Notes under the pieces: generated by a model
The model's database searches: none
Told to the model about the DNA's origin: nothing
What the model saw: the letters and a program-made list of their open reading frames with translations, nothing else
Source of the DNA: a virus
Reading direction: 5' to 3' (one strand)
DNA length: 24,516 bases
IMG/VR virus record: IMGVR_UViG_3300025131_000407
Span: 1 to 24,516 of that record
Part shown: positions 632 to 4,852 of the stretch, piece after piece
Layout of the letters: the number at the start of each line of letters is the position of its first letter
Position numbering within the stretch: position 1 is the first letter of the stretch
Program-made: the position numbers and the translations under genes

Positions 632-716
632 TGGTGGAGACGGTGGGAATCGAACCCACGTCCTAGACAATCCTAAATCTATGAGGGTGTTTGTCTAGTC
701 TAAACCTTTCGTCCCC
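632..716 (-). ncRNA. tmRNA-like tRNA-like domain without an mRNA-like domain
   Basis: On the minus strand, GGGGACG (710-716) pairs with CGTCTCC (636-642) over 7 bp. The third pair is G-U, the identity element for alanyl-tRNA synthetase. A73 and an encoded CCA (632-634) follow. The T arm is canonical: GTGGG, loop TTCGATT, CCCAC (643-659). There is no D stem. Instead GGTTTAGAC follows the acceptor strand, close to the GG(A/T)TTCGAC conserved in tmRNA. A helix CTAGACAA/TTGTCTAG (691-698 with 663-670), equivalent to tmRNA helix 2, is closed by only 20 nt, so no tag frame or pseudoknots fit. No 7-nt anticodon loop on a 5-bp stem can be drawn. It could be a degenerate tmRNA, an alanylated decoy, or an odd tRNA. 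Confidence 0.6.
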
Positions 717-721
717 AAAAC

Positions 722-777
722 GGGGCTATTAGGGGAGGCTGGTCTATGCCATCTGCCTGATTGATCCTAATAGCCCC
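722..777 (-). other. 12-bp perfect RNA hairpin immediately upstream of the tRNA-like domain
   Basis: GGGGCTATTAGG (766-777 read on minus) pairs perfectly with CCTAATAGCCCC (722-733). The 32-nt loop can fold further as AGGC/GCCT and TGG/CCA. The hairpin starts 8 bases after the stop of the 66-aa gene and ends 5 bases (GTTTT) before the acceptor stem of the tRNA-like RNA. It may define the 5' end of that RNA by processing, be part of one larger RNA fold, or act as a weak terminator. Confidence 0.6.
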
Positions 778-3813: not shown

Positions 3814-3893
3814 GGGTTTTTTTAAAATAGTTTTCGGTCGTAAGATACTAAGACTACTAGCTTTATGGAGGTTGCCGCCGGGGATCAAGGAAA
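3814..3893 (-). repeat. operon-boundary repeat, copy C
   Basis: Core CCATAAAGCTAG at 3857-3868, preceded on the minus strand by a GC block (GATCCCCGGCGGCAACC) and followed by TAGTCTTAG, TTACGACCGAAAA, an A/T tract and then the TTGAAA promoter. It starts a few bases after the stop of the 167-aa nuclease-like gene. Confidence 0.8.
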
Positions 3894-4438: not shown

Positions 4439-4518
4439 GCCTTTTTACAAAAAACTTTGAAGCTTAAGTTGTTAGTATTACTAGCTTTATGGTGAAATTC
4501 CCGGCGACCCCCCGCTAT
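4439..4518 (-). repeat. operon-boundary repeat, copy D
   Basis: Core CCATAAAGCTAG at 4481-4492, followed on the minus strand by TAATACTAACAAC, AAAGTTTTTTGTAAAAAGG and TTGAAA. It is preceded by a GC block containing GGGGGGTCGCCGGG directly after the stop of the 35-aa gene. Confidence 0.8.
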
Positions 4519-4650: not shown

Positions 4651-4733
4651 GAAAAAAGCAAGATAAAACATCGAATCCTGTCGTGATTCCTAGCTGGCCA
4701 AGCTAGACAACAGCAGCAGATGTTTTATCTTGC
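4651..4733 (-). terminator. long-stem Rho-independent terminator after the second tRNA-like RNA
   Basis: The minus strand carries a perfect 15-bp inverted repeat: GCAAGATAAAACATC (4719-4733) and its complement (4658-4672), immediately followed by a run of six T. The 46-nt loop can fold further by CTGTTGT/ACGACAG and CTAGCT/AGCTAG, or alternatively by GAATC/GATTC. The repeat begins 5-6 bases after the 3' end of the tRNA-like RNA, so it probably ends that transcript. The stem is AT-rich and unusually long, and may also be processed. Confidence 0.65.
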
Positions 4734-4738
4734 AGTAA

Positions 4739-4852
4739 TGAAGAAGCAGCGGGGATTCGAACCCCGTGCTATGCCAACCCTCACTTGCGTCCCCCTGTGC
4801 GAACAGGTTCGGTGTGGATTGTCGCAGTGCATAGCAAAGCCATATCTGCAAC
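4739..4852 (-). ncRNA. second tRNA-like RNA with possible pseudoknot
   Basis: The minus strand holds a canonical T arm CGGGG-TTCGAAT-CCCCG (4750-4766), followed by acceptor strand CTGCTTC (4743-4749) and TTCA, not CCA. Directly before the T arm, GCATAGCA (4767-4774) pairs with TGCTATGC (4829-4836), as tmRNA helix 2 does. A GGCTTTGC stretch and GTTGCAG (4846-4852) precede this helix in the order expected for a D-like region and acceptor strand, but GTTGCAG pairs with CTGCTTC at only 5 of 7 positions. The 54 nt inside the helix fold a perfect hairpin CCTGT-TCGC-ACAGG, and CAATCC/GGGTTG and TGCG/CGCA would cross as a pseudoknot. No cloverleaf fits. It is layout-equivalent to the RNA at 632-716. 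Confidence 0.45.

Follow-up and report, generated by a model that had tools for sequence, protein, structure and literature searches.

The minus strand of the window, by which we mean the whole 24,516-base virus record analysed here, encodes at positions 716-632 a complete tRNA-like domain (TLD) of tmRNA, the RNA with which bacteria release stalled ribosomes, without the tag region. The RNA is 85 nt long, from its 5' end at 716 to a CCA encoded at 634-632, and it is recovered both by the Rfam tmRNA model RF00023 (67.4 bits, E 1.6e-24, cutoff 47; E 3.8e-28 in a one-record search) and by R1, a covariance model made from 24 family members from other phages with the window left out (66.9 bits, E 2.8e-15). 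The RF00023 alignment spans the full model, with about 300 positions deleted that correspond to the messenger part and the pseudoknots, and it is the only match above an Rfam cutoff in the window. A TLD without a tag region is what the original prediction had proposed, and the architecture that it described is present throughout. All seven pairs of the acceptor stem are formed, between a 5' strand containing G3 (GGGGACG, 716-710; pair probability 0.95-0.97) and a 3' strand containing U70 (CGTCTCC, 642-636), followed by the discriminator A73 and the CCA tail (635-632). The D arm is replaced by a stemless, reduced D-loop segment, GGTTTAGAC (706-698), which fits the tmRNA consensus GGaUUCGAC; helix 2 consists of 8 bp (CTAGACAA, 698-691, with TTGTCTAG, 670-663; pair probability 0.82-1.0), covaries in the family and is closed by a 20-nt loop; and the T arm is canonical (GTGGG-TTCGATT-CCCAC, 659-643; 0.98-1.0). 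In the predicted fold, pair probabilities thus reach 0.95-1.0 in the acceptor and T-arm stems and over most of helix 2. A detail missed by the prediction is a weak terminal hairpin within the 20-nt loop (CCU-9 nt-AGG, 686-672, probability about 0.6), at a position where the TLD family has a conserved hairpin of 3 bp. Since the folding energy of the RNA is by itself only moderately unusual (z -2.07), the identification draws its strength from the covariance models together with conservation. The covariance score, the AlaRS identity (G3.U70, A73, CCA), the reduced D-loop and the T arm all place the RNA with the TLD of RF00023, and as a phage-encoded complete TLD without a messenger part it belongs to the TLD-only phage tmRNAs.

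The comparison of tmRNA and tRNA covariance models that the prediction had called for excludes an ordinary tRNA: against the tmRNA score given above, the tRNA model reached 16.1 bits for a cutoff of 29, and ARAGORN called neither a tRNA nor a tmRNA in the window. On the family members tested, ARAGORN returned either no call or an implausibly long tmRNA. Neither of the alternatives that the prediction had weighed against itself was therefore encountered, be it a good tRNA score with an anticodon or a tmRNA whose 5' part lies elsewhere, as no other Rfam tmRNA match was found within the window. Two-piece (permuted) tmRNA, which also occurs in marine phages such as Melnitz, was likewise rejected (RF04321, 27.3 bits, cutoff 47); in the genes of both, the TLD is separate from the messenger part, but the TLD halves of the window RNA stand in the normal order, with 20 nt joining them. 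The RNA shares with bacterial tmRNA (SsrA, RF00023) the acceptor with G3.U70, the reduced D-loop GGnUUnGAC, helix 2, the T arm and the CCA, whereas it lacks the messenger-like domain and a short loop closes its helix 2. No resume codon, tag reading frame or stop codon is found in the frames read through the 85 nt, for which the messenger positions of the model are deleted, and the RNA has no pseudoknots, merely the 20-nt loop. Because the resume codon is missing, no tag can be added.

The helices covary strongly in the family. Across the 91 distinct members of an alignment that was fitted to the model, and is therefore biased toward structure, standard pairs fill 96.5% of pair cells as against 67.4% in shuffles, changes on both sides affect 607 cells as against 184, and pairing collapses to 43-53% in slid controls; the unfitted, gap-free set A3 agrees, with 94.7% paired and 123 double changes against 41. 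The acceptor pairs 4-69, 5-68 and 6-67 vary freely with compensation, and G3.U70 is invariant (91/91). Together with A73, this pair is the AlaRS recognition signal (PMC3968760), and its invariance is the best evidence in the sequences that alanylation may be under selection. It also suggests, as it is the charging pair that is invariant, that more than titration of SmpB is selected. The same covariation disfavours the view that the RNA is what is left of a host tmRNA gene, or a copy of an attachment site from an integrating element, which we regard as hardly tenable. It is usually the 3' part that an attachment core duplicates, while here both halves and the closed helix 2 are kept and covarying. 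It is true that integration at tmRNA genes is common and that ssrA fragments are found in prophages (PMC9004378); however, integrases occur in 3 of 40 family contigs and none within the window, the position of the TLD is conserved in relatives, and mycobacteriophage DS6A, whose tmRNA is discussed below, integrates at tRNA-Lys and not at tmRNA (PMC10865867).

The RNA of the window belongs to a large family. Viral sequences were searched with a pattern in which the tmRNA D-loop and a GGAC/T-arm block are separated by a gap that leaves no space for a messenger part; it matched 21 contigs when a 5' GGGG was required and at least 120 stretches (in about 120 contigs) when the acceptor letters were left unconstrained. 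Among 129 pattern hits examined, a count in which some sequences are duplicated and the window figures twice, 124 have all seven acceptor pairs, with G3.U70 in 123 of these; the invariance of the D-loop, GGAC and T arm in pattern-derived members is uninformative, since the patterns fixed those letters. Under R1, the clear members of a mixed set of loci score at least 52 bits, and the other matches, mostly tRNAs where checked, about 28 bits or less. Run on bacteria and archaea (84,980 genomes), the identical pattern found 30 stretches, only four of which have family-like scores (63-81 bits, the others at most 33 bits). All four lie near phage-family genes, namely terminase and portal genes in Parafrankia and a head morphogenesis gene in an Acidimicrobiales MAG; for the remaining two, the neighbouring phage families are metabolic or of unknown function. 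TLD-only RNAs are thus strongly enriched in viruses. Plasmid searches gave short partial matches only.

Cultured phages are also represented, with unannotated TLD-only RNAs inside the tRNA clusters of Streptomyces phages BRock, LuckySocke and pSt2308. This location is relevant to the proposal that the RNA is a decoy for some other host enzyme or defence, whether as a sink for AlaRS or EF-Tu or for a toxin acting on charged tRNA or tmRNA by modification or cleavage, as tRNA-directed defence is a plausible pressure on the members within such clusters. We consider this proposal distinctly improbable: the tmRNA-specific D-loop and helix 2, needless for a general Ala-tRNA decoy, have been retained, and anticodon nucleases cannot be baited by a TLD, since the anticodon is absent. 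Streptomyces phage Riptide carries a drifted TLD-only copy (L255, 1977-2056; 53.9 bits), in which GGTTAGA replaces GGTTTCGAC, alongside a full tmRNA elsewhere in its genome. Other BLAST matches were not retained, being full or permuted tmRNAs (Pseudomonas SM1, Synechococcus S-CAM1, Gordonia GodonK) or an ordinary tRNA (Aeromonas AhSzq-1).

The window itself encodes a T4-like head and tail (terminase, portal, baseplate hub), a UvsW-type helicase and a primase, and its terminase is about 31-34% identical to those of the top-listed named phages. From the terminase relatives 33 contigs were picked, often short ones; eight of these contain a TLD RNA detected by R1 homology, with no fixed letters, and all eight have seven acceptor pairs, G3.U70 and an encoded ACCA. 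In each of the eight the TLD is on the strand opposite the terminase, and in seven it is 4.5-9 kb to the upstream side, the eighth conforming only if its 130-kb contig is circular. Some long related contigs are devoid of the TLD, which is thus an accessory gene. It adjoins a GP88-family gene in the relatives of the window, and clustering of neighbours revealed several unrelated settings: directly upstream of the major capsid gene, beside DnaB-like helicase and primase genes, near an HNH nuclease gene and adjoining an exonuclease gene. In several lineages the TLD is close to terminase, portal, protease and capsid genes, and expression near such head and terminase genes could be high. Across 21 capsid-lineage loci, the capsid ORF lies on the same strand 30-296 nt downstream, mostly at 100-120 nt. 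Such spacing would suit an RNase P processing tag in polycistronic phage mRNA, cut just before highly expressed genes, one form of a non-messenger role for an alanyl-RNA (the other being an alanine donor for a transferase). We find a role of this kind very improbable, given that other lineages have their TLDs next to replication genes or within tRNA clusters and that any tRNA would do for processing, with no need for tmRNA-specific features or for G3.U70. Other structured RNAs were noticed around the family. Pistol ribozymes (RF02679) lie on the TLD strand about 0.1-1.3 kb from the TLD-only gene in four contigs (L070, 6093-6154; L004, 3130-3201; L210, 2834-2897; L212, 167-217; all minus strand), and in L115 a DUF3800-IX RNA motif (RF02968; 1150-1211, minus strand) ends 2 nt before it; the TLD can therefore directly follow another structured RNA.

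Partner genes were sought in the same contigs. Searches for SmpB in the window, four cultured phages and 39 family contigs were negative, as was a search for AlaRS in 19 records, the contigs often being fragments; host factors would therefore be needed. A release factor-type gene (RF-1, PF00472) is present in one of 40 family contigs. In Tunturiibacter phage Tunturi_4 (L224, 2618-3379), a tmRNA directly adjoins an annotated RF-1 domain peptide chain release factor, and the two are possibly a phage ribosome-rescue pair; that tmRNA is permuted, however, and a phage release factor was not retained as a partner of the TLD-only RNA.

Upstream of the TLD, the perfect 12-bp hairpin reported by the original prediction is indeed found (777-722, minus strand; arms 777-766 and 733-722), with a structured 32-nt loop, ending 5 nt before the RNA; a stem of this length was reached in none of 300 shuffles. 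Hairpins of different sequence, of at least 9 bp in predicted folds, end 3-11 nt before the TLD RNA in L210, L211, L212, L215, L216 and L217. When perfect stems alone are counted, chance is exceeded in just L216, L217 and the window (0/300 each), so that conservation of a leader hairpin among relatives is suggestive. Farther upstream, a promoter-like motif of the sigma-70 type (TTGACA-17-TATAAT, with TG before the -10; 1371-1343, minus strand), matching the consensus at 12 of 12 positions, points toward the TLD through two small genes: an ORF of 105 aa without a Pfam match (1313-996, minus strand), the first past the motif, and one of 66 aa, with AAGGAGAA before its start, between the former and the hairpin (986-786, minus strand).

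The prediction had seen in such an RNA a novel phage strategy. On this point it was anticipated, as mycobacteriophage DS6A is already described as having a 'TLD only' tmRNA (Mao 2009, as presented in PMC4131195 and PMC11915505). Both RNAs are phage-encoded, comprise little beyond the TLD and have no tag frame, a likeness drawn from the description of the DS6A molecule; DS6A is a single mycobacteriophage, whereas the window RNA belongs to a lineage with a T4-like head and its family to several unrelated phage contexts. In the accessible text of a 2025 tmRNA database paper covering 79 phage sequences, DS6A is the sole phage mentioned without a tag frame (PMC11915505). The literature searched, with most subscription papers outside it, yielded no report of a wide TLD-only family. 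What seems new is thus the breadth of the family, its restriction to viruses, its conserved architecture and the invariant G3.U70: from the one TLD-only phage tmRNA on record in these sources (DS6A), the count rises to at least 120 viral matches in addition to cultured Streptomyces phages. Tagless forms are also described for organelles, in mitochondria and, as a tmRNA of about 65 bp, in Mallomonadaceae plastids (passages in PMC11915505); compared by description only, these resemble the window RNA in being cut to or near the TLD, with the tag frame gone, but are organellar and not viral.

As to function, we favour, with rather more belief than doubt, a stand-alone, alanine-chargeable TLD acting as a decoy that engages the SmpB and EF-Tu of the host and competes with its trans-translation. 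The tagless, alanylatable SmpB competitor of the original prediction would accordingly remain the best explanation, shorn of its novelty. The RNA would be transcribed together with the two small genes, if the consensus sigma-70-type motif is a promoter, and trimmed by host tRNA-processing enzymes, perhaps with help from the upstream hairpin. Host AlaRS would charge it through G3.U70 and A73, a signal that it carries, and host SmpB and EF-Tu would bind the reduced D-loop, the T-loop and the elbow, features that are likewise present. Ala-TLD-SmpB could then take the place of the host tmRNA in stalled ribosomes and, with SmpB and stalled ribosomes occupied, host trans-translation would be lowered. 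SmpB is known to bind the TLD elbow and to stabilise the extended D-loop (PMC3968760), and an engineered alanyl-TLD has been crystallised with SmpB and EF-Tu on a stalled ribosome (Neubauer 2012, as cited in PMC3968760), from which a free TLD should suffice for entry. The decoy is favoured because a molecule similar to the DS6A TLD strongly inhibits E. coli tmRNA, perhaps by titrating SmpB (as summarised in PMC4131195). Judging by its conserved features, the RNA appears to keep the requirements of AlaRS, SmpB and EF-Tu and to drop those of tagging. One observation counters the decoy: the full tmRNA of Riptide, accompanying its drifted TLD, fits poorly with simple tmRNA suppression.

According to PMC4131195, which cites Mao 2009, inhibition was seen with chargeable and non-chargeable RNA alike; a plain SmpB sponge would therefore not need an invariant G3.U70, and the constancy of this pair hints at a use for the alanine. 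Such use is expected if the charged TLD takes the nascent chain and helps ribosome release or recycling without tagging, so that the phage keeps translation capacity and its proteins are spared tag-directed proteolysis. Mitochondrial tmRNAs, which appear to lack a tag frame, are nonetheless retained along with SmpB (as given in PMC11915505), and lambda-immP22 depends for its growth in E. coli on charged tmRNA and on the rescue of ribosomes, tag-directed proteolysis being dispensable or of marginal importance (PMC2862035). Still, tagless rescue seems unlikely to us: the RNA offers neither a resume nor a stop codon for termination, the PF00472 gene is present in just one of the 40 family contigs, and the effect published for the similar molecule, in the account available, is inhibition. 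A broader formulation, that these RNAs are virus-restricted tagless mini-tmRNAs, distributed among many unrelated phages, which require alanylation to work and accept nascent chains on stalled ribosomes, providing phages with a non-tagging rescue or trap of their own and not a mere SmpB sponge, is put forward tentatively, as we doubt it more than we believe it. Returning to the favoured decoy and the readings around it, many phages probably interfere with or bypass host ribosome rescue by means of a TLD-only RNA. If these RNAs are active, interference with ribosome rescue or its takeover would be a common phage tactic missed by standard gene finders, and the invariant G3.U70 sharpens the question of whether they are SmpB sponges only or use their alanine on the ribosome.

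Other elements of the window deserve mention. A recurring intergenic element with ACTAGCTTTATGG or a variant is found at 415-491, 1402-1425, 2359-2435, 3819-3868 and 4443-4492, one copy overlapping the start of a minus-strand ORF, and these repeats are likely a shared regulatory sequence of small early genes. A long inverted repeat at 4658-4733 (minus strand), with 15 perfect end pairs, 27-nt arms that are 81% complementary, and a structured loop, then a T run (z -4.64), resembles in style the hairpin preceding the TLD and may be a terminator or another small RNA. Next to it, at 4739-4852 (minus strand), the TLD model has another match, a weak one (17.3 bits, E 0.017). Its T-arm-like hairpin is perfect and it has a helix of 7 bp (GCTATGC/GCATAGC), but its acceptor is poor (5/7 pairs), it measures 114 nt and, when folded freely, it does not prefer the form of a TLD; it is possibly a decayed tRNA-like RNA.
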